Assembly: GCA_002197995.1 (NCBI GenBank)
Contig: NGZR01000002.1
Coordinates: 8,804,001-8,868,000 of the forward strand
Origin: Gaeumannomyces sp. JS-464
Taxonomy: Eukaryota > Ascomycota > Sordariomycetes > Magnaporthales > Magnaporthaceae
Length of the DNA: 64,000 nt
Direction of reading: 5' to 3'
In this document: piece after piece, positions 24,985-45,391 of the stretch
Layout: every line of letters starts with the position of its first letter
How positions within the stretch are numbered: position 1 is the stretch's first letter
Made by a program: the position numbers and the translations under genes
The notes under the pieces: model-generated
The model's input: the letters and a program-made list of their open reading frames with translations, nothing else
Databases searched by the model: none
What the model was told of the DNA's origin: nothing

Positions 24985-26034
24985 AAAATAAGCCGGATGC
25001 ATAACAGGTTTTAACAAGCTATTTGGCCTTGTTTAAACCGCGTTTTCCGACTCCTTTTAACAACGACATCGGCAACGCAACTGGGCCAAAAAAGCAAAAA
25101 AAGTAGGCTAGCAAAGGTTCGGGGTGCCTATTGCCAGCTGATGAAAAGGCTTGCACCTTATCGCTTAAGGCGCGCCTGGCGCGCGCCAAACCTCGACAAC
25201 CGGATTGCTTTAACCTCTGCGCATATCAGCCAGACCGCTTTTTAACTTCCCTATCGCCTTCGCTTCGCGAACTTACGAACCGAACGATTCCGAACGCATA
25301 AAAAGATTGCAGGCCGGAAAGCAGTTAAAACACATTGGACGAATAGCTGGCCCGGCCGCCGCCGTCCCCCGCCATTTTCGCGACTTTTCGTCCTCGCCAT
25401 CCTCGCGATTTCGCGTCCTTACCATCCTCGCGACTCCTCTTCAGTCGACCGCATTTTAACGATACGCACGGCGCAAGTTTGGCCTGCTATATAAGCACGC
25501 ACGCGCAAAATTTTTAAAATTATAACGCGGTTTTGTTTGCCAGTCGTGTCGTATACGAATCGTCCCACGCTGGCAAACCGCGTAGCTTATCGTTCGATAC
25601 GCGGAAAGGAAAAACACATAAGGAGCATATTAAGCTGGGAATAGGCCTTTTAACCCCCGAACTTTTCTTTTTTTGGCGGGGCCTCGAGGGGGGGGGGGGG
25701 GGGGACCATGGCGGCACCTTCCCTACTAAACCCGGCTTTACTTTTTTTCCAGCACTTTGCCAGCCGACTGCTTTCATTACTACCAACAGCAGCGCTTACA
25801 ACGCTTTGGCGTTTATTCGCCCTTTTGCCGATTGCTTGCTTACTAATAAGAAGCGCCGGAATGCGGCCCGAACTCCGTGTGCCTTCGGGTTTAAAACTTA
25901 TTAGCCGCTTTAATAGCATTATATAGCCTAGTGTTAAGCTTAGGTAACGCTAGCACGTCGTATGCCCCTCGGAAGGCAGGAACTGGTAAATTCCGACTTT
26001 ACCGACGTTAAATATACTTACTTACTTACTTACC
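24985..26034 (+). mobile_element. Short non-autonomous retroelement, copy 1 (LINE-tailed)
   Basis: Begins AGCCGGATGCATAACAGG, like the copy at 45398, and ends in a (CTTA)n tail at ~26016-26034. The last ~300 bases (CGCCCTTTTGCCGATTGCTT, GCGCTAGCACGTCGTATGCC, GACGTTAAATATACT) match the 3' end of the LINE ending at 45391. The 5' part is unrelated to that LINE. This copy is moderately C-to-T mutated and has an internal poly-G run (25688-25704). The structure suggests a SINE-like parasite moved by LINE enzymes. Confidence 0.7.
25688..25704. repeat. Poly-G tract, 17 bases
   Basis: Uninterrupted G run inside the short retroelement copy. The other copy has only a short GGGGGG stretch at the matching place (~45906). 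Confidence 0.9.
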
Positions 26035-26117
26035 CAGGAAATGCCCGGGAGCTAACTGTTACGACCAGGCATTAAAAGCAGGAAGCGGGGCTAAGGCCAA
26101 AAAGCTTGGAAGGCCAG

Positions 26118-26525
26118 TGTTACGACCAGCATACAAGCCCCAGGATAACAAAACGGGAGGGGGCCCCAAGTAGTGCCCCCGCCCTATAGCAAAACACGTA
26201 AAGTCACGTGGTCCGGATGAGATTTGTGGATTTGCAACAAAGCAACAAATCCAAACGGGATTTGTGGATTTGCGATAAAGCCACAAATTTAAAAAAATTA
26301 TTAAAAAAAATAACGTATATATAAAGGATGGATTTCCTACTATTTTAAATAGTTTTAACTAAAACTTCGGCATTAATTAACTTAAATTAGCTTTTAAGCA
26401 ACTTTTAAAGTAAATAATTAAATTATCCTTTTAAGTTACGTATTCCTTTATTTATTAGCACAAGCGAAATTGTTTTTTCCACCCCCGAAGTGCTTTATTT
26501 TAAAAGCAAACCTTTAATTGTAACA
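26118..26525 (+). repeat. 5' LTR of chromovirus
   Basis: 408 bases from TGTTACGACC to AATTGTAACA, with the inverted ends TGTTAC/GTAACA. It contains a TATATATAA box near 26316 and the motif CTTCGGCATTAATTAAC shared by all family copies. Confidence 0.88.
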
Positions 26526-29500
26526 TTTTAACTAATCCTATTTAATACTTTGTTAAAAGGAAAGGATAATGCAGTTATAGCAAGTAACAGCAAAAGCTTA
26601 AAAAGGAAAAAACTACGGTTTTTACCCTTAACGGTATTAAATATAACCTTAACGAAACTGCTAACACGGCTAGCCTTTTTAAATTTATAACGGACGAAAT
26701 CGCTAAAAGTTAAACCGAAGTGAAATAACTTACTACAAAATTAGAGTTTTTTAAAGCACTTATCGCAATTAAAACGTACAAATTCCCGTTTTAAACTTTT
26801 ATAAAAGGGAAAACGGCAAATTTAAAACGTTTTTTACCGAATGCAAAAGCTATTTTAAGTTTTACAAATAGCAGTTCGTAAACGAGGAATAAAAAGTCGT
26901 TTACGTTACTATTAAGCTAAACGGGAAAGTGAAAAAGTGGTTTTAGCTAATTTAAAACGATTACTTTAAAAGGTATAAAAATAGCCAAAAAACTACCAAA
27001 CTTATTTTCGCTAATTTCGAAACCTTCGGAAAAAAGGTTAAAAAAGTGTTCGGAATAATCGACGAAACTCGAATCGCTGAAAGAGATTGCTGGGCTTTTA
27101 AATAACGAAAAGCCGCGGCCAAATACGCCGCAAATTTCTAACGGATTAGTATTAAACTTAGCTGGAGCGACGCTACGTTAATACTGCACTTTTACAACGG
27201 ATTACGCGAAAACGTAAAAGATAAACTCGTAAAGTAAAATCGTTTGGAGTTTTTTACAAACTACGTCCGAAACGCGGTTCGTATTAATAATAAATTGTAC
27301 AAACGATAATAGGAAAAAAAATATAGTTTTAAAAGTGCGGTTTAAAATAGCAAAACTAATTAAAAAAAGCTAAATAGCAACTTATTACGGCTTATAAAAC
27401 GCATTTAAACTTTATAAATTTTGTACGAAGGCCGTTTACCAGCGATAAAAGTAGCAAAAAAGCAAAAGCAAAATTCGAAAAACGGGAAATGCTTTAAATG
27501 CGATTAAACCGGCCATATTAAAGCAAACTGTTTTTAACGGGATAATAACCGCTAAATAGCTAATTTTTAACGAACGCAAAAAAGCTTAACATAAAAAAAG
27601 CTATGCTTCGGGCCGGCGTTTAACTAAACGAACTATTACGACGAACTATATGCCATATATTAATTCGATAAGGAAATTACTAGATAGTATTTTCGAAAAC
27701 TTCGAAACGTTTGCATATTTAAAATTACAAGGTTTAAATACGATAGCGAAAGCGAATAACGCGTTATTTCCAAACTTACGAATTTAAAAAAGGAAAATAA
27801 CGCCGCCTTTTGTAAAGTTTAAAAAGGAGCACTTTTAATAACCTTAGCAAATGGTTTAAAAGGAGGAAAAGCCCGAAAAGAGCTTTTAAACTAAACACAC
27901 CTTTTTCGAAAATCGAAAAGCTTTAATATTAACGCTAAAATGGATTAAAACGGATAAAACTTCGAAACGGCCGAGTTTTAAAACAAACAAAAAGCTCGAG
28001 CGGCATAACTTTTAAACTTATAATCCGCAAAAATTAAACAAACTGGAAAGATTAACACGCTTTTACACTTTTCGATATTTCGGAATGTTTTTAAAATGTT
28101 AAGGTTTTAAAACACTTAAATGGCCCGTTATATTACGCCATTCCGGCGGAAAAAAATAACGGTTAACTTTTATCGTGGTTTAACGACTAGCAAAAAGTTA
28201 GGTATATTAAATACCGGGTTAACAACGTAAGCGAATTAAAAAGGGCTGCGCTAATCCCCGAAAACCACCTTAACATTAAGTTAAAACATTTTAAACATTT
28301 GCACCTTTTTTAAGCAAAATGCATTTATATAAAATACAAATTCCATTTATAACCTAAATTTAAACACGATTTTTTCCGACGGAAAATGGGAAATAAGCTT
28401 AAAGTTAAGCCCCGTTTGGCATTCTAATTGCCACGGTGGGAACCAGCCCGAATCGGTAGGTTTACCGCAGTTTTTAAACTTAATAAGCGGTACCCGATGC
28501 TATATATTACCAAAACGCTTAATTAAAGAAAATGCGAAATTGCGAAATGCAAAAAACATATGGCATAAAAAGCGAAAGCCTAGCATTAAAGGATTACGCG
28601 AGCGTACGTACCGTTTAACTCGAATAAAAAAACGAACGTACGGTACCCGTTCTTTTTACTAAAAAACAAAAAAACCACCCGAGCGGAAAACACGAAATAA
28701 AAAACGAAAACCGATAAAAACCTTCGCGATAGCAAAATCGATTTAACCGTACGACTTATTAACATTCCGGATAAAATATTAAAAAAAAAAGTTAAAGTAA
28801 TGATCGATTGCAAAGCATAAAGCGATTATATATCGTTATAAACGGTTAAACGGTATAAATTTTTATAAAACGGAAAAATTAACCGTACCAATTAAAAACG
28901 GCCGAAAAAATACCTATCGCTTATAATAAAAAATGGATTAACTAAAAAACATAATTAATAATATTACGCACCCGGAATAAGGAAAACGTTATTATTACAT
29001 TGGATAAATTAAATATAAAAAAAGAAAACGTTATTTTCGGAATCCGCTGGTTTAAAAAAAATAATTTACAAATAAATTAGGCTAACGGCCAAATTTAATA
29101 GGAAAAGCTACAAATAATTAAAACGGTTAGTTAATTATAAATTTTAAACTGTAAATATAAAAAGCAAAAAAGGGAAGTTACGACGGTAATAGGACTTAAT
29201 AATTTATTTTCGCATTTAGCATTAATAAATACACGATTATCCAGAATAAAAAGCGATTAAAACAACCAAACCAATATTAAAAAACGGCTCGCGAATATTT
29301 TAAAAAAATACCACAAATACGAAAGTTATTAAAAAAAAACCTAAAAACGGTGCTTCCCGAATATAAACCGTTCGATTTGGAAATTAAGCTTAAATTAAAA
29401 ACGCAATTTAAGTATTAAAAGTTATACCAGCTTAGCTTTCGATAATAAAAAGTGCTAAAAAAAACAGCTGGAAAAAAAAACTACGAAAAAGGCAAATTAA

Positions 29501-30850
29501 ACCTTTCGATTTTTAATAAAAACCTAAAATCCTATAAAAAAAAACGGAACGAATATGCATTAATTACCGATTATTAAACGAGGTTACGATTAAAAACCGA
29601 TATTTTTTGCTTTTATTAATAAACTACGAAATAAGCTCGGTAAAGCCTAATATTTTACGGTTTAAACCTATAAAAAGCTTATAGCTTAATACGGATTAAA
29701 AAGGGTTAAAATGGCTTACAGCTTTTAAAATAAAACTTAAATGCTATAAATTTTTAATAATAACTTTTAGGCTTACTAATGCGCTAACCACGTTTTAAAA
29801 GATAATTAACTATATATTACGCGAATATTTTAACATTTTTATTTTCGCGTATTTGGGCGATATTTTAATTTTTTCGAAAACGTTGAAAAAGTATAAACAG
29901 CGTATATATAAAATGTTTCGGAAGCTGCTTAATGCAAAGCTTTTTATTAAACTAGAAAAGTGCGAATAACATTTGTAAAAAGTCGCTTTTTTAAGGTTTA
30001 TAATTACACCTGGATAAATTTGTATAAATTTTAAAAAAGTTAAAAAAGTTAAAAAATGGCTTATATTTAAAAACGTTACGAAAGTATAAAGGTTTTTAAA
30101 AATTTTAAATTTTTACAAACGGTTTATTTGTAATTATAGCAAAATCGCTATACCATTTACAAATTTTACCAAAAATAACCATTAGTTTTATTAAAAAAGG
30201 CAAAAACAAAAAGCTTTTAAGCAATTACGAAACGCCGTATTAAAAAAGCTAATATTAATATTCCCGGATTTAAAAAAACCTTTTAAAGTTAAAACTAACG
30301 CGTCGAATTATGCGATCGGCGGCTAACTCGAATAGCGAAATAACTAAAAACGGTTGCACTTTTGCGGGTTTTTTTCGCAAAAGTTAAATGGATTTAAATT
30401 AAATTACCAAATTTATAATAAAAACTTTTTAGCAATTATTTAAACATTTGAAAAGTAACGACCATACTTTTATAAAATTAAGTATTAAGTTATAATATAT
30501 ATAAATTATAAAAACTTAACACATTTTACTATAAGCAAAAACCTAAATAAGCGATAAATCCGTTAAAACGAGTTTTTGCAAAACTACGACATTTGGATCG
30601 AATACCGGAAAAGGTCGAAAAACGGCCGGGCGAACGTTTTAAGCTAACGATTAAACCATTAAATTGTAATACTTAAAAAAATACGGGTAATTTTAACGGA
30701 AAACCAAACGGATTTTTAATTTTAATATAAAGGATATTCGTTAAAACGGTTTAATAAGGAAAAGTTTAAACTTTAAAAAAAATCTAACAAATTTATAACC
30801 AGTTAGCATACGGCTATTAAAACGTAAAAAAAACGTAAAAACGGTTGCAA
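26526..30850 (+). pseudogene. gag-pol remnant (CCHC knuckle, reverse transcriptase, RNase H)
   Basis: A CCHC zinc knuckle of gag is readable at 27490-27531 (CFKCD, stop, TGHIKANC). A reverse-transcriptase region runs ~29300-30100, with RLLNEVTIKNRY near 29565 and the palm motif at 29850-29861 reading YLGD where YxDD is expected. RNase H follows at ~30290-30560 (TNASNYAIGG and QKLNG segments). Many in-frame stops of RIP type occur throughout. The reading breaks at 30851, where the nested insert begins. Confidence 0.8.
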
Positions 30851-30888
30851 TAATATTACAGCCCTAGTGCGCGGTGTCCTGGTGTCCT
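30851..30888 (+). promoter_or_regulatory. Left half of replication origin: nonanucleotide, stem arm, iteron-like repeats
   Basis: TAATATTAC (30851-30859) is followed by stem arm AGCCCTAGTGCGCGGTGT (30860-30877). GGTGTCCT occurs twice in tandem (30873-30880 and 30881-30888). Tandem GGTGT-type words beside the stem-loop are the usual Rep-binding iterons in geminiviruses. Function here is inferred. Confidence 0.75.
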
Positions 30889-31369
30889 TTTCGGGGTAGT
30901 GTGGGTTTTCGTGCGGGGTTTACTGGGGTTAATTGGTGTTTTGCAAAGGATTGTTTTATTGTTTTCGTAATTTGCAGGACATTATTATATAATAATTTAA
31001 TTCTCGCAATGGCTAAATGGGACCGCATCCAATCGCAACTGCGCGATGCATATATCCCTGTATAAGTTATAACACAATTAAATGTAATCGGCATATTGCA
31101 GCTTTGCATAGCCTTTTATATTGCTTTTTAAGGTCGGTCGTTTAGACATTCCCCTTTATTATTGCATTAGTGTTTTACGCGAAATTATTGTTTATTTATT
31201 CGATCGCGATACGCGCATTCGATTAAACGTGGATTTTCCCGTTATTTTCGCGTTTTTATCATATCGATTATCTTTTTCTCTGCTTATAAAAAAAGGTGCT
31301 TTACTTGCCACGAGTTGCAAAATTACCCTTTTTCTCGATGTATTTACGATTCCGTTATAAGCGACCGAC

Positions 31370-32080
31370 TCGGTATCGTCGCTTTTACCCTAATCGCTCC
31401 TCATACGGCACCGTTCGTTTTTTAGCTCGATTTCCTCGTTAGCGTCGCTGGCGCTATTAAATACAACCGCCGTCCGCTATATCCTCCTCCATCGATTCGG
31501 CACTTTTTCGATTAGCCGCATTTCCGTTTTGGTGTTACTTTTACTTTTTCTCGACACTTTATGCACCATTTTCACTCCTTACCGTTATTACCGCCATTAT
31601 GGTTTCCGGCTTACAAGGAGGCTACGGGCGCCACTTCCGTAACGGTCGAGGTTTTAACCGCTTTGCGTCGGCAGTAAAGCAGGTTTTTAACGTTAAGCGC
31701 CATTTTACTAGCAAATTGGTTAATAGGAATTCGCAGCTAATCCGGTGTGAAATGCGTACCGGTACCTTTAATTCCGGTTTTTTTCTACCCGGTACCGAGC
31801 TTTATCGTGGTATTAACCGCGGCCCCGATATTAATACCGTTATTTATCGGGGTATTAAGCTTAATATGTCAATTTGTGTGTTTCGGTTTTGCAATATGCG
31901 GATTATTGCTTATCGCTTTGCTATTAATATTATTGCTAACATGTAGCATTATGGTAATCCTTTTAACGATATGCGAAATGTCGCATTTGTTTTGGGCGGG
32001 GGGGGGGGGGGGGGGGGGTGGTGGATTTGGTAAACTGGATTTAAAGGAAATTAACAATCCGTTTAGCGCTCGTTAATATC
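31370..32080 (+). pseudogene. Rightward gene remnant of the CRESS insert, possibly capsid
   Basis: The virion-sense side of the unit, where a capsid gene would lie. One frame at ~31379-31425 reads RYRRFYPNRSSYGTVRF, an Arg/Tyr-rich stretch of the kind seen at capsid N-termini, and then meets RIP-type stops. Another frame is open from 31599 (GLQGGYGRHFRNGRGFNRFA) to 31946 and is also basic and Gly-rich. Frames change, a G-run interrupts at 31998-32018, and no diagnostic capsid motif can be shown. The call rests on position and composition only. Confidence 0.35.
31998..32018. repeat. Poly-G tract, 21 bases
   Basis: Uninterrupted run of 21 G in the virion-sense part of the CRESS insert, continuing as TGGTGG. 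Confidence 0.9.
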
Positions 32081-32559
32081 TCGTTAAATGTGGAAACATT
32101 TTTTCTTTTTTTAATACTCGGACCATTTTTTTTCGGTCCATCGATTCGCAGCGCCGTTTACGCGTTTTGTTAAATTAAGTTTAGCATTTTTCAATATACG
32201 CGGGGCATTTTAATTTCGGCTTGTTTTTATTTGGATTTTTTTAATTTAAAAGGTTAAGTATTTCGGTATAAGGTTAAACGGTTTTTATCGGCGGATGCTA
32301 TAAAAGGTTCGGTTGGATATTTATTTTTTTATTATGTTTTATATTCCGTTTTTTACGGCGGAAAGCCAGTATAAGCCCAATCCTATAGTGATAAATTTGG
32401 ACCCTATTACTGTTATTTACACGAAGAAAGCTATGGATAAGCTGTCGTCGTCGTAGTTTGTTCGGCGCAAATCGGTGTTTTATTCTTTTCGTTTGCCCGC
32501 TTTAAAAATCCGGGACATTAGTTTTACTTTGTATTAGCGATAGCCGAAGCAAGGTAATT

Positions 32560-33830
32560 AATTAAAAAAAGCTATCGTTTTCCTCGTTTAATTGTTTTAT
32601 AAACGCTTTTAATGCTTCCACTTTTAAATTTAGCGTGCCATATGGTTTCGCTTTTACGAACAATGGTTTATGCATTTGTATAAACACACAATTTCCATCC
32701 AACCATATCGCATTTACCCATTATACTTACGTGGGTTTTCGTTTGCCAAATAAATGCAAAGCCATCCCCAGCTTTCGAAATGCACCTTTTTAAAGTACTT
32801 GTCGGTTACCGAAAAATTGCTTTAGCATTTTAGCATTTGCTTATAATGCTTAAGCATATCCTTATCGCTTAATAGCACGTTGTCGATTACCAAATATTTT
32901 TTAATGCTATCGAGTAGCGAGGCGTTCCAATACCCGCTTATGTAGTTATATAAGCCTAAGCTTTTAGCCCATATTATTTTAAACAGTTTTATTACATTGT
33001 ATAAATATAGTGATTTAGGTTGTCCTATTAATAAAAGATAAAGTTAGCCACGTATATAAAAAGTCCGGCGAGGGGCCCCCCGGGGGCCCTTTTAGGGTGG
33101 GGGGTTTAAGCCGTGGACCGGACCTAATAAAACACCATAAAAAATGGCCAAAAACTAGGTTTTTACCTTTTGGGGGGTCCCGTAGCGAGGGACGAGCGGA
33201 AAGGGGGGGTTATAGCGTACTTTGTTTTTCTCGCAAGTTTTTTTGCATCCATTTTGTAATTTCCATAAAGAGGTCCTATATACCGTTTAACACCGGTCCG
33301 ATATACTTTAGGATTAGCATGCGGAACGTATCGTCGGCGTAAGCTTTCACACTTATGTAATGAAAAATCAATTCGCGGGGGGCCTTTTCGCGGAACCGGG
33401 AAAAAAATCCGTGCGATTAGATGTTTTTACAATTGCAAACCAAAAGTTTGCTTTAAGGTTTTTGCGCAGCCCTTTTGGCTCGGTTATTATGCCGCTAACG
33501 TGTTTTAACTGGCCTTTTCACTTGTAAAGGTATTTCCAAGCAGCTAACGGTTGCCTAATCCGCTTAATGTTCGAATGGAACCGTCCAATGTCGAAGTGTT
33601 TGGGATTTTTAATGTTTTTTTTTTATCCCAATTGCCGATAACGTGGTAATGCGGGGTGCCGTTTTTATAATGCTTTCGGACGGCGTAGTAGTCGAAAAAG
33701 CCGAACTTTTCGATGCTTTGGTTAAGTTCTTTTGGCGAAAGCGTACATTTTGGGTACGTTAAAAAGACGGACTTTAATGCAAGCTGGAACGGTATATTAC
33801 CGACGCAAAAATCGACGACTTGCAAGTCGT
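32560..33830 (-). pseudogene. Rep (rolling-circle initiator / SF3 helicase) remnant
   Basis: An open stretch of 93 codons (33825-33547) contains HUH-endonuclease motif I FLTYPKC (33765-33745) and, 38 residues from its start, motif II HYH (33651-33643). The spacing is that of geminiviral Rep. A tyrosine motif of type YxxK (YLYK, 33532-33521) follows in another frame, just beyond a stop. Further left, in broken frames, WAKSLG (from 32971) and YLVIDN (~32896-32879) match the SF3 helicase region between Walker A and Walker B, and a NEN-containing strand near 32745 may be motif C. The gene is broken by frame changes and stops. The open stretch has no ATG start. The protein family nicks the origin and unwinds DNA in rolling-circle replication. 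Confidence 0.8.
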
Positions 33831-34124
33831 TTAACTGTTGGCTTGTTAGTGATATTAGTGCCTCGTTTTACATAAGCGAGTTAAATAAGTGGTTTATTAA
33901 AAGTGGAAAAAGTGGACCGATTAATAAAGTGTTTATTTGTGCGTTATATTGTTGGTTGTTAAACACTGTTTGTGGCACGAACAGCGGTAATAATTGCAAA
34001 AGAGAAAAAAGAGGAAAGGACGACGCCCGGAAAAGTTAAAATGGGGAAAACATATTGCTGCTTATTGCCTGTTACTTGGAATACTAGTAAGAAATCGAAA
34101 TGCGGTATCCTGTCCTTTTTATGT

Positions 34125-34166
34125 TTTTTTTACACCGCGCGGATACCAAGGCTAATTTAATATTAC
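34125..34166 (+). promoter_or_regulatory. Right half of replication origin: stem arm and nonanucleotide
   Basis: ACACCGCGC followed by GGAT and ACCAAGGCT forms the other stem arm, ending in AATT and TAATATTAC (34158-34166). Against the left arm, 9 base pairs are perfect. After a four-base bulge 7 of 9 more pair, and the two mismatches are those expected from G-to-A change. The loop would be 13 bases and contain the whole nonanucleotide. Confidence 0.78.
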
Positions 34167-35330
34167 GGGTTTGTAAAAACTCGAGCCGAAATATAAAACG
34201 CAATAAAAAATTACGAAAGTTATGCTAAAAACAAAGCTAAAAAGCATAACCCATATAAATTATTGCAATTTTTGCTAGTATTAAACGAAGCATAGCAAAA
34301 AATTACTATAAATTTCGTTATTAAACTTTCCCAATTTAAAAAACTAGTAATTAAAGTAAAATATAACAATATATTAGTAATAATAGATAAATTTACTAAA
34401 TATACCTTATTTTTACCGTATAAAAAAGTAGCAACGCTACCGAATTAACGTACGTTTTTATTAAGCACGTAATAGTAAAATACGGCACGCCGAACCGTTT
34501 AATTACGAATAAAAATAAATTATTTACAAGTAAATTTTGGAAAAGGTTTACAGCTTTACTAAAAGCAAAACATTCCTTATTTACAACTTATTACTTTTAA
34601 ATAAACGGATAAACGAAACGGATAAACCAAACTATAAAGCAATATTTACGTTACTACGTTAATTACAAATAAAATAACTGGATATAATTACTTTTTATAG
34701 CTTAATTCGCTTATAATAGCTTAATTTATAAAAGCATAAAAATTATACCGTTTTATACGAACTATAAGTTTACGTTTACAACGTATAAAAACCTAAAGCA
34801 AAAAAACATGCTTTAATAGCGGAAATACAAATAACAAAACTTACCAAACTGTATAAACACTTCCAAATAAAGCTAAAAAAAAGCTATAGCACTGTATAAC
34901 CATTTAAATAAACAAAAAAGGATTTAAAACCGACTTTTAAAAAAGGAAATAGCGTTTATCTTTTTTAACGCAATATTAAAACAAAACAACCGAACGATAA
35001 ACTAAACTACAAAAAACTAAACCTTTTTAAAATACTAAAAAAAATTTCGAACGTAAATTATAAATTTTAACTACCGCTAATTATAAAATCCTACTCGGTT
35101 TTTTATATTTCCTTATTTAAATTAGCGCTATTAAGCTTTAAAAGTAATAAGTTAGTGGAAATTAACCTAAAATAAAAGTACGAAATCGAAAAAATTTTAA
35201 ACCATAAGCTAAAAAACAAGGCCAAAAAGTACCTAATTAAATGGAAAAAATACGGCCACGAGGAAAACACGTGGAAAAAGCAACCAACCTTATAAACTGC
35301 TAAAAAGCCTTAATAAAGTACTAACAAAAG
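34158..35330 (+). pseudogene. Chromovirus integrase and chromodomain remnant
   Basis: This continues the gypsy pol after the insert. The HHCC end of integrase is readable (CAKNKAKxH-type around 34215-34250), then the DDE core: ILVIIDKFTKY near 34375, KAKHS...TTYYF around 34565 and the region before QTIKQYLRYYVNYK (~34630-34670). At ~35175-35300 a chromodomain is clear: EIEKILNHKLKN, then KYLIKWKKYGHEENTW. A C-terminal chromodomain defines the chromovirus branch of Ty3/gypsy and in related elements guides insertion to heterochromatin. RIP-type stops are frequent. Confidence 0.82.
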
Positions 35331-35409
35331 CATTTATAAAAAGGTTAGTAAAAGCAAAAATAGCTAAAAACCCGATCGCCGACGCGTCGATAATCGGATT
35401 TTTAGCAAT

Positions 35410-35481
35410 GGTCGCATTAAAAATCGAACCTAAAACTTTCGGCCAATTAGGTAAAATGCGCTACCACTGCGCCATACAACC
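35410..35481 (-). tRNA. tRNA-like sequence (mutated tRNA or SINE relic)
   Basis: Read on the minus strand, the 72 bases have tRNA proportions. The acceptor arms GGTTGTA and TGCGACC pair with G-U wobbles, the D arm is GCGC-AGTGGTA-GCGC, and a T arm TTAGG-TTCGATT-TTTAA pairs with two G-U. The A box (TGGCGCAGTGG) and B box (GGTTCGATT) of RNA polymerase III are recognisable. The anticodon stem does not pair properly, so identity cannot be read and function is doubtful. It lies between the chromodomain and the 3' LTR, inside the retrotransposon. Confidence 0.55.
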
Positions 35482-35627
35482 TATGGAAATTATTAAAGAA
35501 GCTACAATTTACCAGGTTAAAAAAAGGTAAACAAATCCAAGTCGGGATTAACCTCGAATGCTTACTAGTCGGGGGAAACGGTAAAAGCTACGAATGGCCC
35601 AAATTGCGAAGCAGTTTAGTAGGCTTT

Positions 35628-35867
35628 TTAATCGGCCTCCTCCCGCTCGATACGCTTTAATTCCTTTACGAAATTAATACCACGACGCACCGCGCGCATT
35701 ATCTTTTTTAACCACATTTGTTTTTGTTTTCGAAAACGGAAAACTTTTTCCTTCGCCTTTTCCAATTCGGCTTTAAGCTTGGAATATTGCACGACGATAT
35801 TTCGAAGCTTTATAAGCAAGGGCTTTAAAACGTCGCACTTTAATTGGTTAATTTGGAAGCATTCCAT
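35628..35867 (-). CDS. Antisense coiled-coil ORF between pol and 3' LTR
   Basis: An ATG-started 79-residue frame on the strand opposite to gag-pol has survived without stops in RIP-damaged DNA. It is Lys/Arg/Glu-rich with heptad-like spacing (LIKLRNIVVQYSKLKAELEK) and ends RRGINFVKELKRIEREEAD. This ending resembles the coiled-coil tails of proteins from other fungal transposons. No domain can be named. It may be the C-terminal remnant of a larger antisense gene carried by this element family. The tRNA-like sequence lies ~150 bases downstream on the same strand. Confidence 0.4.
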   Translation of the reverse strand: MECFQINQLKCDVLKPLLIKLRNIVVQYSKLKAELEKAKEKVFRFRKQKQMWLKKIMRAVRRGINFVKELKRIEREEAD

Positions 35868-36147
35868 ATATTAAAATAAATTTTAAAAAAAAGCTTTACA
35901 CTTTTTACGCTTTAAAACCTCGTAATAATAAAAGCAAAAAGGCATTTCGAAGGAAAAAAAAAACAATCGTTAAAAGCTTTTTACAATTAACGGTTTTTTT
36001 CGTAAAAGGACGTTTTCGCACTTAACTGGACATCCTGTTAAAATAAAAAGGGATAGGAAAAGGTAAAAAAGGAAAGTATTTACCATTAATAAAAAGCGGG
36101 GCGATAAAACGTAATTAAAAAAACTTAGCTTAAAAAAGGAAACCTAA

Positions 36148-36636
36148 TATTACAGCCAGCATATAAGCTTTAGGATAATAAAACGGGAGGGGGGTTTAAA
36201 TAATGCCCCCGCTTTACAGTAACGGGACGGGAGGTAGCCCTAAATAGTGCCCCCGCCTTATAACAGGATACGTAAAATTACGTAATTTAAATAGGATTTA
36301 TAAATTTATAGCAAAGTAATAAATCCAAGCGAAATTTGTGGATTTGCGATAAAGCAACAAATTTAAACAGGATTTGTGGATTTACGACAAAACTACAAAT
36401 TTAAAAAAACTATTAAAAGAAATAACGTATATATAAAAGATGGATTTTTTACTATTTTAGGTAGTTTTAATTAAAGCTTCGGCATTAATTAACTTAAGTT
36501 AGCTTTTAAGCAACCCTAAGGCAAGCAATTAAATTGTCTTTTTAAGTTACGTATTCCTTTGTTTACCAGCACAAGCGAAACTGTCTTTTCCACCCCCGAA
36601 ATGCTTTACTTTAAAAGCAAACTTTTAATTATAACA
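36148..36636 (+). repeat. 3' LTR of chromovirus
   Basis: Runs from TATTACAGCC (TGTTAC-type start) to AATTATAACA and matches the 5' LTR throughout, with C-to-T and G-to-A differences. It is ~80 bases longer because the block AAACGGGAGG...TGCCCCCGC occurs twice (from ~36180 and ~36226). The CTTCGGCATTAATTAAC motif and TATATATAA are conserved. Confidence 0.85.
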
Positions 36637-36649
36637 GCTAAGCAAGCTT

Positions 36650-37110
36650 TTAACCGCGCTTTCCTACAAGTTACGTAACCTAATGGCTTATTTAAGTTGG
36701 ATTTTTAAATTTTTAAACAAATTTATAAATTTAACGACTTTTAAATTTTTAAATAGATTTACAAATTTAACGGATTTTTAAATCTTTAAATAAAGCTATA
36801 AATTTAAAAACCGTGGTAATTGGGAAAAGTGTATATAAAAAATGGATTTCCTTTTGCCTTAGGTAGCTTTTAACTAAAGCTTTAGCATTAGTTAACCTAA
36901 GTTAGCTTTTAAGCATTTTTTAAAGTAAGCAATTACATTGTTCTTTTAAGTTACGTGTTTCTTTATACTTAAACCAGTAATACTGTCCTATTTACCCCCG
37001 AAGTGTTTTACTTTAAAAGCAAACCTTTAATTGTAAGATTAACTTAGGTTAATTAATGCCGAAGTTTTAGCTAAAACTACTTAATATATAAAGAAATTCC
37101 TTTATTATAT
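36650..37110. mobile_element. Diverged LTR plus inverted LTR fragment
   Basis: 36650-37033 is a further, more diverged LTR of the same family in plus orientation, with degenerate (AAATTTATAAATTTAACGG)-type repeats in its upstream part and ending AACCTTTAATTGTAAG. At 37035 the sequence switches directly to an inverse-orientation LTR fragment (TTAACTTAGGTTAATTAATG to TATATA), so two broken copies meet head to head. Confidence 0.65.
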
Positions 37111-37282
37111 ATTTTTTTTAGCTTTTACGCTAATTTTCTTAATTTCTTGTATTTTTTTTAAATTATTACGAATTGCTCGTTAAAAGTTAATTTGTCGTAA
37201 TTTTTTAAATTACTACAAATCGCTCGTTAAAAGTTAATTCGTCGTGATTTTTAAATGTTACATAGCTTTTAACCTAATGCGG

Positions 37283-37760
37283 GGTTGTTAATAACAAGCT
37301 ATATAATAGCCTTTAAATTACATTGTTAATGTAGTTAGCTACACATTTTAATGCACTATGCTAAATTAAATTTTAACAAGTTATAACGCTTTTATGCGCG
37401 TTTTTTTTACATTTCCAAGTTGCTCGAGTTTAATTCCCCATGCTTGCTGGTTTTTAAAAAATTTTCAATTAGTTCGAATGCTAGTAGATTTAAGCCTTTT
37501 ATTAGGCTAAAGCATAGTGCTGCACTGCCCCACACTGTGGAACTTTACAACTTGTGGAATGGCCCGTTTCGAAGCGCTTATCGCTTGCTACTAGCAGCGA
37601 TAATAAGTATAAAGCAAACTTATGTTTTAAATAGGCTTTAAAATAACGTTTAAAAAGTGGTGTTAATAATAGGCTATATAATAGCTTTTAAGCTGCATTG
37701 TTAATGTAGTTAGTTACACTTTTTAATGCATTATAACCGAATTAAATTTTAACAAAGGTA
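37283..37760. repeat. Pair of ~100-bp direct repeats
   Basis: GTTAATAACAAGCTATATAA...TTTTAACAA (37285-37382) recurs at ~37666-37758 with scattered C/T and A/G differences, about 380 bases apart. The intervening sequence is less AT-rich. These could be terminal repeats of a short element or a local duplication. Confidence 0.55.
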
Positions 37761-40541
37761 AAAGTTCGTTTTTTTAATCCACTTTTTTTAATATCCCGCC
37801 GTTTAACCTTTTACCCTTTTTTTGTTTTGGTCGTAACATTAAGTTTCCTTTTTAAGCCAAATTTTTTTAGCCATTTTTACAACTTTGTTTTTTTATTAGC
37901 TGGTAAATACTTTCTTTCTTTATTATTTCCCATTTTTTACTTATTTTAATAAAAATGTTTAATCGGGTGTAAAAACGCAAGTTTATTCCTTTTTTAACAC
38001 GTTGCCGTAAGGACTTCCTTATTGCTATTACGTTATTTTTTATTAAAATGCCTTTTTATATAAATTGCAAAACGCGTGGTTTTTCGTTATGCAACGCATT
38101 TTCCACCGAATTTAATTATTATACGAAATGTTTTTAAAATAACCAGATAAAATGTAACGTGTTAAGAATTTTTCCTAACATTTTTCGTTATTACGCTTTT
38201 TAACATTATTAATTAAATAAAAAGCTTAAAAAGGTTAAAAATGTTACGGTTAGGAAAGCTTTAAGTGTAAATAAAAAAGTTGGGACTGGAAACCTTTATC
38301 GTTAAATAAGGACGAAAGCTCCGCAAAGTGAATCCCGCATAAAAATATTTTAAATTTTTGCAAAGTTAAACCTCCGGCTTTTAACTTACTTTAAATATTA
38401 TCTTTTTGCTTTTTTAATTTTTTTGCTTTCGATTGCGTTAATAATTAATAGCAACTTTAAAAAACCTAAGCGACCGGCGCGAACGTAATCGCGGAAATTA
38501 ATTACGTCCTTTTTTACTTACCTTTTTCCCGGATTTCGCAAGTTTAAAACGGCGACGATCCTTTTTACTAACGTAGGTTTAAAACGGCGTTAAATTTACG
38601 TTTAAGCAGGTTTAAAGCGGCCCATAACGCTTTACTTTACACTTCTTTTTTTACTAATTATCCACCTAGCTATTGCAAGTTTAAAGCGGTTTTAGCAATT
38701 ATTAGTTATTTACTTTATTAGCGCAAGCTTAAAACGGCGTCGATAATTATTAACACTTTTCCTTTCCTTTTCCTATTTGCGGTAATAAGCTCGCATTATC
38801 CGAATCCCTTTTTTAAAGTTGTAAAAGATATTTTTCCGTTTTTCGCGTTAAGTTTTAAACGGGCGTTAACATTTAAATCACTTTACTTTTATTTCGTCCT
38901 TTTACTTTTTTATTACTATAGTTAATCCTTTAGCTGTAAACCTTTCGGAACTCGATAAAAACAATTAAACATCGGTAAATACGTTTATACTAAGTATAAT
39001 ATTTAGGTTTTTAATTTTTAAAAGCGATTTTCCAATGCTTTATTAAGCTATTACCTACTTATTATATAAGGATAATATGCATTTCGAAAAGGCTAAACGG
39101 ATTAACAATCGGTTTAAAATAATATAACCACTTTTGGGCATTAAGCAATTTACTAAACCTTTTGCTACCGTAATAGCTTTTAAGTTTCCATTTAACGATA
39201 GTTAATTACAATTTTAAATACGACTTTACTTGAAATATTCGCTTTAGCAAATTAGCATTAGTTATTTACCACCCACTTCGTAAAAAGCGCGAAACTACGT
39301 TTTAAACAATTATAAAAAAAGCTTCGTCCTTTTAATTTATTTTCCAAAGCTAGTTTTATCGGCTTAGCTTTAACGGAAAAACCATCCGCCGTTTAAAAAA
39401 CCAAATTAAAAATTACAAAAACCGCTTTTTCCGCGCACTTAAAAAGCTAAAAAGCTTTATTTAAAAGCAAAACAGTTTAAAGCAATTATAACGGGATTAA
39501 AATAAGTTTATAAACCAAATAAAAACAAAATTAAAAAGCATTAAAAATAACCGCGGGCGTTTTTAACGTTTTAAATATAAGCGTTATTATAACTCCCACG
39601 GTTCGTAATCGATTTACAACCGCAATTATACCCTATTTTTAAATAAAAGCGAAATACGCCACCTTTTCCAAAAAAAATCCAACGTAAATAAATTTAAGCT
39701 TATAACGCACCGGTATAATCGTTACGCGACGACCAAAACCCTTTTTTTAACGCGCGCGCTACCTTTTTTTATAATAACGGTTATTTAAACGCTAAGCCTA
39801 AAGCATACCGCGAACGGCCTAATACGAAAGCACTTCGTTTTAAACTTTAGCTGCTTTTAACTAAACAAGCTTACGTAACATATATTATTACGAGCGGTAA
39901 CGGAAACTTGTCGAACCTTTCGTCCTTTTTTAACGATAACGATAACAAAAGAGCCTTTTTTAACTAAAAGCTAAAAAAAACCTCCGCTTCGCTTATTAAA
40001 AAACCTTCGTCCCTTCCGGTTTATTTCTATTAACACCTTTTAATAAAACCCAGCTTAAAGCAAAAGCCACCCTTACATTTTTTTACCGAAAAATAAAAAA
40101 GATCGAAATTAAAATCGGGATTAAAACGTTTAAAAAAACGTAAAAAACCGCGCTGCCCGTAATTATAAGCAATAAATAGTCGACATTTACGTATCTATTC
40201 GCTTTAACAAAAATCGCTTCCTTTTTAAGCGAAAAATAATCGAAGTTTTTAATCTTTATTAAAAAACCCTAATAATTAAAGCATTTTTTCGATTTTAAAC
40301 TAACAATTTTATAAACGTTTACTTTTTTACCAAGCGGATCGAAATTTTTTGCAAAAACTTAAACACGGTTTAAAACGTCGATTATTAGTTATTTAACCTT
40401 TTTTAAACCCTTTTTAGCGGTTTAACAGCTATTTAGTAAAGCAGCTAATTTAATTGTAAAAAACGCGCCATTTTAAAAGTTTAAAATTTAATAGCAGTTT
40501 TTATAGCCTTAAACGACAATTCGCTTTAAACGTTAACAAAG
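37761..40541. other. RIP-degraded repetitive DNA, content not assignable
   Basis: AT-rich with frequent TAA/TAG in all frames and no surviving coding frame. 38500-38760 has recurring words (GTTTAAAACGGCG-type). The stretch may include the 5' part of the LINE that continues after 41012, because the solo LTR at 40542-41011 was inserted into pre-existing DNA. Confidence 0.5.
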
Positions 40542-41011
40542 TGTTACAACTAGGGGTTTGCTTTTAAGGTAAAGCACTTCGGGGGTGGAAAGGACAATGT
40601 CACTAATGCTGGTAAAAAAAAAACACGTAACTTAAAAGGACAATTTAATTGCTTGCCCTAAGGGATGCCTAAAAGCTAACTTAGGTTAATTAATGCCGAA
40701 GCTTTAGTTAAAACTACCTAAAATAGTAGGAAATTCATTTTTTATATACACATTGCTTTTTTTAGTAATTTTTTAAATTTATCGCTTTATTTTTAGCTAT
40801 TATAAATCCACAAATCCAGCTTGGATTTATCGCTTTGTTTTTAACTATTACAAATCCACAAATTTAGCTTGGATTTGTCGCTTTGTTTTTGGCTACCATA
40901 AATTTACAAATCCAGCTTAAAGCACGTAACTTTACGTGCTTTAATGCGAAGCGGGGCACTATTTAAACCTTTCCGTCCTATTGTTTTAAGGCTTACATGC
41001 TGGTCGTAATA
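40542..41011 (-). mobile_element. Solo LTR of the chromovirus family
   Basis: In inverse orientation it runs from TGTTACAAC to GGTCGTAATA. It contains the family motif TTAATTAATGCCGAAG, a TATATACACA box and the repeated AAATCCACAAATCCAGCTTGG-type units (in pieces). Perfect 5-bp duplications CAAAG flank it (40537-40541 and 41012-41016), showing an insertion followed by LTR-LTR recombination. Confidence 0.82.
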
Positions 41012-44000
41012 CAAAGTTATTAAGCTTTTTATAAAAACGATTTTTACCTTTTAAAACCTGGTTATAAACGAGTTCGCTTTGCATTAGCTCGTTTTTAAAA
41101 TGCTTCATTTTGTTAAAAGCATAAGAATTACTTAAAACGGCAACTAGTACGGCATTATAATTCAAATTTGGAACCGTTTTAATTTAAGCATTTAAACGCC
41201 GTTAAAAGCTCCCAAATCGATAAAAACTCGCGCTAAATACCTTCGTTATATTAAAAAAAAACAATTTAATGCTAATTACCGTAACCCGAAAGCATTATCC
41301 CAATATTATAGTTAAAAAACACAACTTTCGCAGCAAAAGCTATAATAACAACTATAATAGCAAACGTAACAATTACAGCTTTAGCAAATTTAGCAATCGC
41401 TATTACGATAAATCCCGTAATAAACGTCAGGATTATAATCGAAACCACCGCTATTTAAATTTTCACTGTTACAATTTTCGCTATTACAACTTTCGCCGTA
41501 ATTTTAACCGTAAATATTACTATCGCGATGAAAATCGCGATTATAAATTTCGCGATTATAAACGAAACGATTACAAAAACCGTAATAATCGCAAAAATGA
41601 TTACAAAAAAAGTGGCAGCCGTAACCGTTGTAATAAAAATCGCGATTATAAACGCTTAAATTACAAATAAGGTGACCGAGTTTATAACGTTAAAAACGGC
41701 GACGCTAACGCCGAAAACTCGCCGGTTAACCAAAACGACGATAATAACGTTTCGAGCGTTATAAAATCCGTCGACGCGGATAAGCTTTACGCTATTAAAA
41801 AGCGTGCGGGGTCGCACATTTGCAAACGTTATAACGCCGTTATTTTCTTTCGCAATTTGCTTTTTACTTATTTTACCGTTTGTTTTAACAAGCCCGTTTA
41901 TTAAATTAATAAAAAGCTTTTTACTTTTTAATAGTTTATAAAAACAAACGTTATTAAAAAGGTTATCAAAATCGATTTAAATATAATCGCATTAGGCGGT
42001 TACTTTTACGCTAAAATAACGATCCGCTCGTTTTTTAATAGCTAAAAAACTTAAATTTATGCTAACTCCAGCTTTGGCCGAAACTTGGTAATTATCGACT
42101 TTTTTCGTTATTACAAATATAAGGTTTACAACGTAAACGACCTTAACGTTTAACTTATCCTTTTTAAATGGAATTTTAAGCGCTTTAAACGTACTATTAA
42201 ATTCGCATGCGTTATTTTTTACACGTTTAACTATTATTTTAACGGTTTTCCCGCCGTGCTTAAGCAGTTAACCTACGTTTAAATCGTTAAACATTTAGCT
42301 ACAGGCATAATTTTTAGCGTTACCTTTTTTAAACCTTGAAAAGCCTCGATTAACTTTACGGCCGATTTAATTAACCTTTTTTTAAACCATTTTTACGCCC
42401 TGATCGTTATAGTTAAAAAAAGCATTGCAATTGTTCGAGCCGTTAAAACTATTAACGCCGTCGTAATCCCGGCGTAATAAATTATCGCAGTTTTAGTAAA
42501 GTATTTCCCGCTCCCTAAAAAACGCACGTTTTTTATAAAAAGAAACCATCCTATTGCTTTTAATACCGTGGTTAACTGCAACATTAAACCCGTGTGCTTA
42601 ACGCATAACGCTATAAACCAACCTATACGATTTACTAAAAACATACACATAGCTACTATTCGAAAGTATACGGATTAAATTTATTATATTTTTAATTTTA
42701 AAACAATTTTTAAAACTATTACTAGTATAACAGCATTAGCCGCCGTTATAAGTTATTAGGTTAAATATAACGTTAAGTACAACTTTAAAACCCTTTCGAC
42801 CTCTCTTTTTTTTTAAAACACCCGTTGCGGGCAAAACTTTTTAAAACGCTGGTTTTAAACCGATTATCCTCGAAGTAATTTTTAAACCGGACGTTAACAT
42901 CCCGTTAAAAAACTTGATGTTTAACTTTCCGGAATTTTTTCCCCGTATCCCGAAAAAAAGGAGCAATATCCGTGCTTTTAAAAAAGCATTTTATATTTTA
43001 ACCAAAAACAAAATCCACGTGTATAACGGAAACCTAACGAAAGCTCGAATTTTTAAAAACATTTATAAACCCGCAAACATTTAACGCAATAAAAAACCGA
43101 TCGATATTTTTAAAAACGAATAAATAAAAATCCCTTTATTAAAAAATGGCAAAACTAAAACGCTAAACTACTTAACCGACCTTATTTTTTACTCGCAAAA
43201 ATAAAAACGTTATTAACAAAACGCACGACAAACTTAACGAATAAAAACGTTAAAACCAGTTAACCACGTTACACTTTTCGCGTTTTTTTGCTTCGTTATA
43301 TGGCGTATAATTTACGGCTAACCCAAAAGTCGTATTATTATTAACCTCCGCTAATTTAACAAAATTTTAGTTCCGAACGCGTACCTTTGTCCTTTTTAAC
43401 AAAACGTTATTTACGCATTAAAAGGTAAAAAGTACGCTACCGTTATCGATACCACCGCTTTCTTTTTTCAATTCCTTATACACTTTAAACATCAGGACCG
43501 GCTTACGATTTTAAACTATAAAGGTTTTAAACGTTCGCGTATCGCTTTTATAAGTTACTAATGGGTATATAAAGCCGTTATAACGGTTATTATCCTAACA
43601 GCATTATACGGGGCCGAAATGTAGTATAAAAGCAAAACTAAGCCATACCCATATAAGCTCGCACAATAACAATATATCCGTTAAAGCTATTTAATTAAAC
43701 GGGTTAATAAAACTTTAATTGCGTTTTTTCGGGCAATAATACCAGCTTGGAAAACCATACCGATAAAAGCTTTACATTACGAATTTAGCATTCCGGGTAT
43801 TAAAACGCTTTTAAAACAAATCTGCTTTCGTTTTACGGCTCGCATTAATACGGTTTCGAAAGCCCACTTTTTAACCGCAGCGGTTAAGCCGACGATTAAC
43901 GTTCGAAGGCTTAAAACGGGCCTGCCCGGCAAGCAAACAACCTGTTTGCAAAAAATAGTTAAACTTTTTCCGGTTTGCATTTGCCCGCTTACCTCCCTTA

Positions 44001-45391
44001 TAAATATACGGGGTTAACGGTGGCCATATAAAAAAGCAAACAGCCGTTAAAGCATTTATAAGGTGGTTAAACACCTTTTCTTTTATACACGTTATAATTT
44101 ATAACGACGGGTTTAAAGCGGAAAACGGAACAGTTAAATACAATTGGGTAATATACTAAACCGGTTAACGCAAACTTTCCAGGCACGGCAAACTGGCGCA
44201 CTTTATTAAAATATTCGACGGCGAGGCGGAAAAAAGCCTAAATAGGTTTTCGCAAAGCTATTTAAAACTTTTATAACGCCATTTACCATTTGTGCCTCGA
44301 TAACACCCCGGCGGTTAACGGCTTTTTAAGCACGGCTTTTAATAGCTCGTAAAAAGCTTTTAAAAAGGTTTATTACTTTATAAAAAAATACCAGGTGCAC
44401 GTTCGTTAATCCCCGGGCCATATGGGAATTCCCGGAAATAAAAAAGCCGACGCCGAAGCAAAGCTTAGCACGGCCCTCCCGGTACCCTAATTATGCTAAA
44501 CCAACAATGGCCGGCGTTAAAGCTTTAGCCCGGAAGATGGCCCGGGACGCCCGGAACACTTGGTTTAAAAGTAACCTCCTGGAACGATATAAGGCTATAA
44601 GCCTCCCGCCGATACCACAGCGCTTACCCGACGTTTTGCAACTGCACCGGAAGGTATTATAACGGCTAATAGCCGCACGTACAAGCCACGGGGATTTCGA
44701 CTCGTACCACCGAAAGTTTAAACACGAGGACGACAACCCGTGCCGTTATAAGAAAAATAAATCCCTTTGCTACCTTGTATTTTGCAAGCTAGCTAAAGCA
44801 AAGGAAAATAAATGGCCTATGGCGGACCCCGTTTTAACCTTCGATAAGCCCGGGTATTAAAAACGGCTGCTATAAAAGCCCTTTTTTTTTGCCTCGTTCG
44901 TTAAGGCCACCAACTATTTCACCATCGCCGAACGATAATAATAAGGCATAACAGCCCGCATATTACCTATTTTTTATTCCCTTAGCACTTACACCTTTCC
45001 TTTGTACCACCCGGACTAATAATAAGCTCGTTAGTTCCTCGCAACCCCGGCCGGACCCAGGGGTGGTCCCAAAAACTCCCCGCCTAGCCTCGCCCCCTTT
45101 CCCGGCACACTCGCCGGCCGAACGCACTACTACCACCGCTGCGCTTACAACGCCCCGGCGTTTTATACGCCCTTTTGCCGATTGCCCGCTTACTAACAAG
45201 GAGCGCCGGAATACGGCCCGACCTCCGTATGCCTTCGGGTTTAATTTGCTAGCCGCCGTAATGGCAGCACCATAACCTGGTATATATAACTTAGGTAGCG
45301 CTAGCACGTTATATGCCCTTTGGGAGGCAGGGACTGGTAAATCCCGATCAGCTGACGTTAAATATACTCTCTCTCTCTTTCTCTCTCTCCC
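41012..45391 (+). mobile_element. Tad-like LINE, RIP-degraded
   Basis: Plus-strand remnants occur in LINE order. 41269-41670 is a very basic Asn/Tyr/Arg/Lys-rich stretch. The C-terminal side of reverse transcriptase is readable at ~43440-43800 (TALYGAEM, stop, YKSKTKPYPYK; AIIPAWKTIPIKALHYEFSI). An RNase H domain spans ~44090-44460 (GTVKYNW, FDGEAEKSLN, then PGHMGIPGNKKADAEAK). A Cys/His-containing tail lies near 44690-44790. The 3' end is a CT-rich simple-repeat tail (45362-45391), as in fungal LINEs with microsatellite ends. Stops are abundant. The 5' limit is uncertain and may lie left of the solo LTR. Confidence 0.72.
41269..41670 (+). pseudogene. Basic low-complexity remnant in LINE (ORF1-like)
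   Basis: An open 133-codon frame dominated by Asn, Tyr, Arg, Lys and Asp with repeated RDYK/NRDYK units. Its composition suggests a nucleic-acid-binding gag-like segment altered by RIP (Tyr, Asn and Lys codons enriched by C-to-T and G-to-A change). No zinc knuckle is intact. Confidence 0.35.

Follow-up and report, generated by a model that had tools for sequence, protein, structure and literature searches.

A dispersed family of decayed geminivirus-like units in a Gaeumannomyces genome, probably joined by Rep to host copies of the origin nonanucleotide

The window, that is, the whole stretch of 64,000 nucleotides of Gaeumannomyces sp. JS-464 DNA analysed here, contains a decayed geminivirus-like unit that lies between two copies of TAATATTAC inside a chromovirus. 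The unit occupies 30860..34157 (+; 3298 bases), and both of its termini recur in the genome. The two nonanucleotides are located at 30851..30859 and 34158..34166 (both +), with their starts 3307 bases apart. An earlier note on this DNA had described a unit with TAATATTAC at both ends at this spacing, lying within a fungal chromovirus; both points were borne out, the surrounding element being a chromovirus at 26118..36636 (+). Within the window, TAATATTAC occurs four times, compared with a mean of 0.41 and a maximum of 2 in 100 shuffles, a control that is lenient because AT-rich DNA makes up only part of the window. In that AT-rich part (26001-44500), the looser pattern TAATNTTAY was found at 11 of 37,000 positions.

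The chromovirus that received the unit is bounded by LTRs at about 26118-26525 and 36148-36636, the 3' LTR being longer by about 80 bases. Across an alignment of 407 bases, 58 transitions and not a single transversion separate the two LTRs, as repeat-induced point mutation (RIP) would give. In pieces of two other copies of this chromovirus, the SH3_Tf2-1 and Chromo domains both score above their Pfam cut-offs. The unit is younger than the chromovirus that it interrupts, and its copies are now decayed as well: across 231 pairs, the median frequency of transitions was 0.172 versus 0.032 for transversions, a pattern that RIP would give, with RIP in the unit copies judged from this transition excess alone. 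Additional LTR-like pieces, direct and inverted, were found next to the chromovirus at 36826-37127 and 40538-40887. The window also encodes a protein that is 93% identical to Gaeumannomyces tritici acetolactate synthase, which makes the host a probable relative of that fungus.

The minus strand of the unit carries the remnant of a Rep gene. Its catalytic (HUH) domain, at 33544..33867 (-), matched the Pfam family PF00799 (Gemini_AL1) with 28.8 bits against a cut-off of 24, and matched Rep chains in the PDB, among them a solved Replication-associated protein at E=1.3e-6. A leftward Rep remnant with an HUH domain, first proposed by eye, was therefore upheld by profile search. The equivalent piece of a second copy scored 23.6 bits to PF00799, just below the cut-off of 24. 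The remainder of the gene comprises a decayed middle part (33215..33440, -) and a decayed helicase-side part (32560..33043, -), both with a codon-phase signal, and between them a GC-rich stretch without codon phase, possibly an intron (33056..33214, -). As for the SF3-helicase traces claimed earlier, Walker-like motifs are seen by eye only and the coding stretch there has codon phase; the window's own central and helicase-side pieces (including 32822-33043) matched no Pfam family. The middle piece of a third copy reached 13.3 bits to Gemini_AL1_M (cut-off 24) and was outranked by two unrelated families.

Between the copies and the window, transversions at codon positions 1/2/3 numbered 31/29/66 in the first Rep piece and 10/8/33 in the helicase-side piece, in per-piece counts where a change shared by several copies is counted more than once. 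The middle piece gave 85/32/12, counted in the same way, in the assumed frame; its bias sits in the neighbouring frame, which is the frame left open in another copy. A sliding transversion count found no codon phase in 33020-33199. The GC-rich stretch was also considered as a later insertion, which was rejected because it is matched at least partly in 22 other copies. Stop-free frames of at least 200 residues were present at only one of the 36 loci scanned (L043), and this locus matches the left part of the unit alone; therefore, no intact Rep was seen. The Rep pieces had no viral relative in viral contigs and no relative among proteins of 0.55-1.75 times the piece length, a range that does not reach full-length Reps.

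A second gene runs rightward, with its best-supported coding part at 31599..31999 (+) and a weaker codon phase extending to about 32599. In its frame, transversions between the copies and the window were distributed 75/23/146 over codon positions 1/2/3, with shared changes again counted repeatedly; when each column was counted once over 12 copies, the distribution was 17/7/25 (p=0.007). Because transversions favour third codon positions, we regard this frame as a real gene, and the sliding count outlines two genes directed away from the origin side. The earlier description of a rightward remnant holds as far as coding is concerned, but profile searches gave no capsid homology. Since no Pfam family, protein or PDB structure matched (one PDB match had E=2.2), the capsid identity is a guess from the position of the gene on the unit. 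By eye, an arginine-rich start near 31336 was suggestive of a capsid; this reading was rejected, as 31100-31519 lacks codon phase in the sliding count. A long G run at 31998-32020 lies within the gene, and its length and flanking frames vary among copies.

The ends of the unit are inverted. The left arm (30860..30877, +) would form the 3' arm and the right arm (34132..34153, +) the 5' arm of an origin stem in a circle; by eye, ACACCGCG (34132-34139) faces CGCGGTGT (30870-30877), with an additional imperfect inner arm. Four natural tandem junctions in the genome each carry a nonamer (TAAAATTAC in one of the four). In these junctions, 0, 11, 22 and 97 of 200 shuffles folded at least as well as the natural sequence. 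The origin stem-loop expected from the inverted ends has mixed support: the arms are present, but the fold beats all 200 shuffles in only one of four junctions.

We searched the 53-Mb host genome with BLAST. Two pieces of the unit that contain no nonamer matched 26 and 31 stretches, the window included. Terminus patterns allowing up to three mismatches located 24 right and 22 left ends, whereas reversed-pattern controls located none, and the termini reached from the nonamer-free pieces were the same ends. One additional right end with an indel (C1:1057292) was located by BLAST, and about ten copies without one end, recognized by eye, stand outside the counts of 24 and 22. The unit is therefore a member of a dispersed multi-copy family of about two dozen decayed copies, and not the single fossilised replicon that had been supposed. 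The earlier note had also raised a DNA transposon whose copies end elsewhere and carry a different transposase; the copies instead share the two termini, apart from the roughly ten without one end, and a Pfam scan of unit pieces that cover part of its frames revealed no transposase family.

The independent junctions of these copies were then compared, leaving out the four tandem junctions. All 18 left ends adjoin TAAT[AGT]TTA[CT], and 19 of 21 right ends adjoin TAATATTA[CT], with the other two off by one or two bases. The left nonamers comprise TAATATTAC (10), TAATGTTAC (4), TAATTTTAC (2), TAATGTTAT (1) and TAATATTAT (1), and the right nonamers comprise TAATATTAC (17), TAATATTAT (2), TAACATTAC (1) and TAATAGTAG (1). 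At position 5 of the nonamer, 7 of 18 left ends carry a base other than A, versus none of 21 right ends (Fisher p=0.0021); the right-hand base is A even at insertions with G or T in the left nonamer and in the empty sites. RIP was considered as a source of the right-hand A: it could turn G into A, but it could not turn T into A. Nonamer-free BLAST pieces located 17 of the 18 left ends (the exception being C1:12441142) and all 21 right ends; since the ends were found without the nonamer in the query, the result was not produced by the pattern search.

Relatives of the targets that contain no unit were read at five targets. All 44 paralogous empty sites have one nonamer-like sequence, including 9 of 9 other chromovirus copies, five of them with exact TAATATTAC. 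When the two flanks of an insertion were joined and used as a query, matches spanned the join in 40 of 40 cases for one repeat (X), 18 of 21 for a second (Y) and 10 of 13 for a third (Z), and at a target formed by an LTR junction the nonamer was covered by 37 of 40 matches. The matches that did not span the join were mostly the filled site's own flanks, and one flank pair had no empty relative. At the empty sites of repeat Y, position 5 is T in eight and C in two, with A in none. The LTRs of the chromovirus begin with TGTTAC, so a preceding TAA makes a ready-made target; one such nonamer-like sequence lies at 36145-36153, where TAA precedes the LTR start, and of the five left ends where position 5 is G, four resemble sites of this kind by eye.

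At insertions where the bases of target and element are not the same, the nonamer on the left agrees with the target (TAATGTTAC, TAATTTTAC) and the one on the right mainly with the element. The proposal that the nonanucleotide was used for integration stands in that the ends lie at nonamers, with the change that the two copies have different origins. In the window, the left TAATATTAC would accordingly be pre-existing target sequence, with its final two bases possibly contributed by the element, and the right one would consist of the element's TAATATT joined to a target AC. The junctions fit joining at TAATNTT^AC, while the cut itself is bounded only to somewhere after position 5. According to the available text of a study of Rep cleavage (PMC7826260), cleavage lies inside the nonanucleotide, T at -4 and at -1 is almost unanimously most preferred, and only a slight preference exists at -3 and -2. 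Position 5 of the nonamer corresponds to -3, so the base that varies among targets is one that these cleavage data call weakly selected; the left ends vary at -3 but not at -4, -2 or -1.

Taken together, we consider it probable, at roughly three chances in four, that this is a decayed multi-copy geminivirus-like (CRESS-DNA) element whose Rep nicked both its own origin and TAATNTT^AC in the host and joined the two. In such a process, Rep would nick the origin of the element and a TAATNTT^AC site in host DNA, and the element's origin would be joined to the host nick with no target duplication left behind. The donor would presumably be a circle or a rolling-circle strand, and it may have come from either an infecting virus or a genome-resident transposon, the element being known from decayed chromosomal copies only. 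Each insertion would leave a nonamer at both ends, and these would serve as new docking sites from which arrays could grow. We infer that Rep rather than host recombination was the joiner. Against Rep joining stand the two deviating right ends (TAATAGTAG and TAACATTAC) and the one deviating tandem nonamer (TAAAATTAC), as well as three insertions with unlike flanks, the flank pair that had no empty relative, the mixed support for the hairpin and the lack of an intact Rep among the loci scanned.

The main competing explanation is that circular viral DNA recombined with a chromosomal TAATNTTAC through host repair, by a single crossover or by microhomology joining, perhaps at a Rep-nicked origin, with Rep supplying at most the break. 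A crossover within the nonamer would yield the same left and right hybrids, and every join has nine bases common to both partners. Nevertheless, this route leaves unexplained why the nonamer was used constantly over other short matches, and a randomly placed crossover would sometimes put the target base on the right, where A was found at position 5 in 21 of 21 ends. We therefore regard host repair as unlikely, although it deserves to be taken seriously. A cut-and-paste DNA transposon that duplicates 9 bp of its target and happens to carry a viral Rep fossil would account for two nonamers flanking a unit with inverted ends and for one nonamer in the empty sites. The fixed-direction difference between left and right nonamers (7/18 vs 0/21), together with the empty sites, argues against such a duplication; the T-to-A difference at repeat Y is no RIP change, tandem units share one nonamer, and the part of the unit that was scanned holds no transposase family, all of which makes this explanation very improbable. 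Spread of the copies by segmental duplication or retroelement hitch-hiking is more improbable still: the examined flanks are mostly repeats and two left flanks (the window and C1:10521104) lie at the same chromovirus site, but the flanks represent five or more distinct targets, many of whose relatives are unfilled, and the bias of between-copy transversions toward third codon positions implies that the copies diverged under constraint.

Joining by Rep at host nonamers would also bear on the tandem arrays. In four arrays, neighbouring units are parted by one nonamer (three TAATATTAC, one TAAAATTAC). The partners within an array were reciprocally nearest in none of the four, ranking 7 and 16, 1 and 5, 18 and 20, and 7 and 9 among 21 relatives. 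These ranks fit repeated docking better than concatemers, and the single shared nonamers together with the lack of a reciprocally closest pair suggest that repeated docking built the arrays. Concatemers were rejected as the source on the same ranks, although the array partner was the nearest copy in one of eight comparisons.

A broader reading is that these units represent a class of rolling-circle transposon built on a geminivirus-type replicon, in which Rep would treat a host TAATNTTAC as an origin, splice the unit in and re-create a docking site at each end, so that copies stack and nest and virus and transposon are one entity. We hold the chances for and against this reading to be about even. 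Helitrons and Replitrons are transposons of eukaryotes that use an HUH endonuclease and leave no target duplication when they insert. A Helitron has CTRR at its 3' end and goes in between A and T; the 3' end of the unit, unlike theirs, reads ...GCTAATT followed by TAATATTAC and ends at the origin nonamer. In AAV, a linear parvovirus, a viral Rep nick site matched by chromosomal sequence directs insertion at one preferred human locus. The present case is similar in that a Rep nick site matched by host sequence would direct insertion, but it involves a geminivirus-type origin and many dispersed sites.

Among the closest described systems is a geminivirus-like transposon from Tuber melanosporum (Liu et al. 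2011, PMC3198968), which, in the accessible part of that paper, is multi-copy and has no obvious target-site duplication; a copy reconstructed there carries two transposase ORFs and is bounded by terminal inverted repeats of 37 bp. Both are multi-copy fungal elements with a geminivirus-like Rep, inverted ends and no obvious target-site duplication. They are set apart, as far as that description goes, by the imperfect and shorter arms of our unit, the lack of a transposase in its scanned pieces, and its nonamer targets with empty sites, no nonanucleotide target being reported there for Tuber. For endogenous geminiviral sequences of yam and tobacco, the available text of Filloux et al. (2015, PMC5014472) suggests Rep-driven, Helitron-like spread. 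These sequences likewise form geminivirus-like units in tandem, and their repeat contains TAATATTAC, but their hosts are plants and that text gives neither target-site nor empty-site evidence. Whole CRESS genomes in Entamoeba and Giardia, near-complete units in a eukaryotic genome as here, are attributed to probable Rep-mediated integration (Kinsella et al. 2020, PMC7493932); they belong to other virus families and, in the portion available, come with neither a site-specific junction series nor target-site evidence. Replitrons are named in the accessible text of PMC13231165, and the word geminivirus is absent from that of the Gaeumannomyces genome paper (PMC11905480). We found no report of nonamer-directed insertion with empty sites in a literature search of weak reach, subscription papers falling mostly outside its coverage.

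In the literature covered, the arrival of single-stranded DNA viruses in the chromosomes of eukaryotes is credited to Rep or to repair without a junction series. Many junctions and sister empty sites in one genome, where the two nonamers can be told apart, make the question of Rep versus repair testable. If true, joining by Rep at host nonamers would provide a tangible example of the link suspected between single-stranded DNA viruses and rolling-circle transposons, and tandem arrays would be explained without concatemers.

Some loci show a more complex arrangement. At C33:490000-499900 (L045), the sequence after the right end of a unit belongs to the interior of a different copy, close to an internal nonamer-like site, and this locus, read by eye, is apparently a nested insertion. 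In C1:10521104/10516179 and C29:1738380/1724081, the left and right flanks come from different repeats, and the flanks of C31:1768031/1764760 are also unlike by eye. The unlike flanks of these three insertions perhaps arose by later recombination between copies or by joining to two targets.
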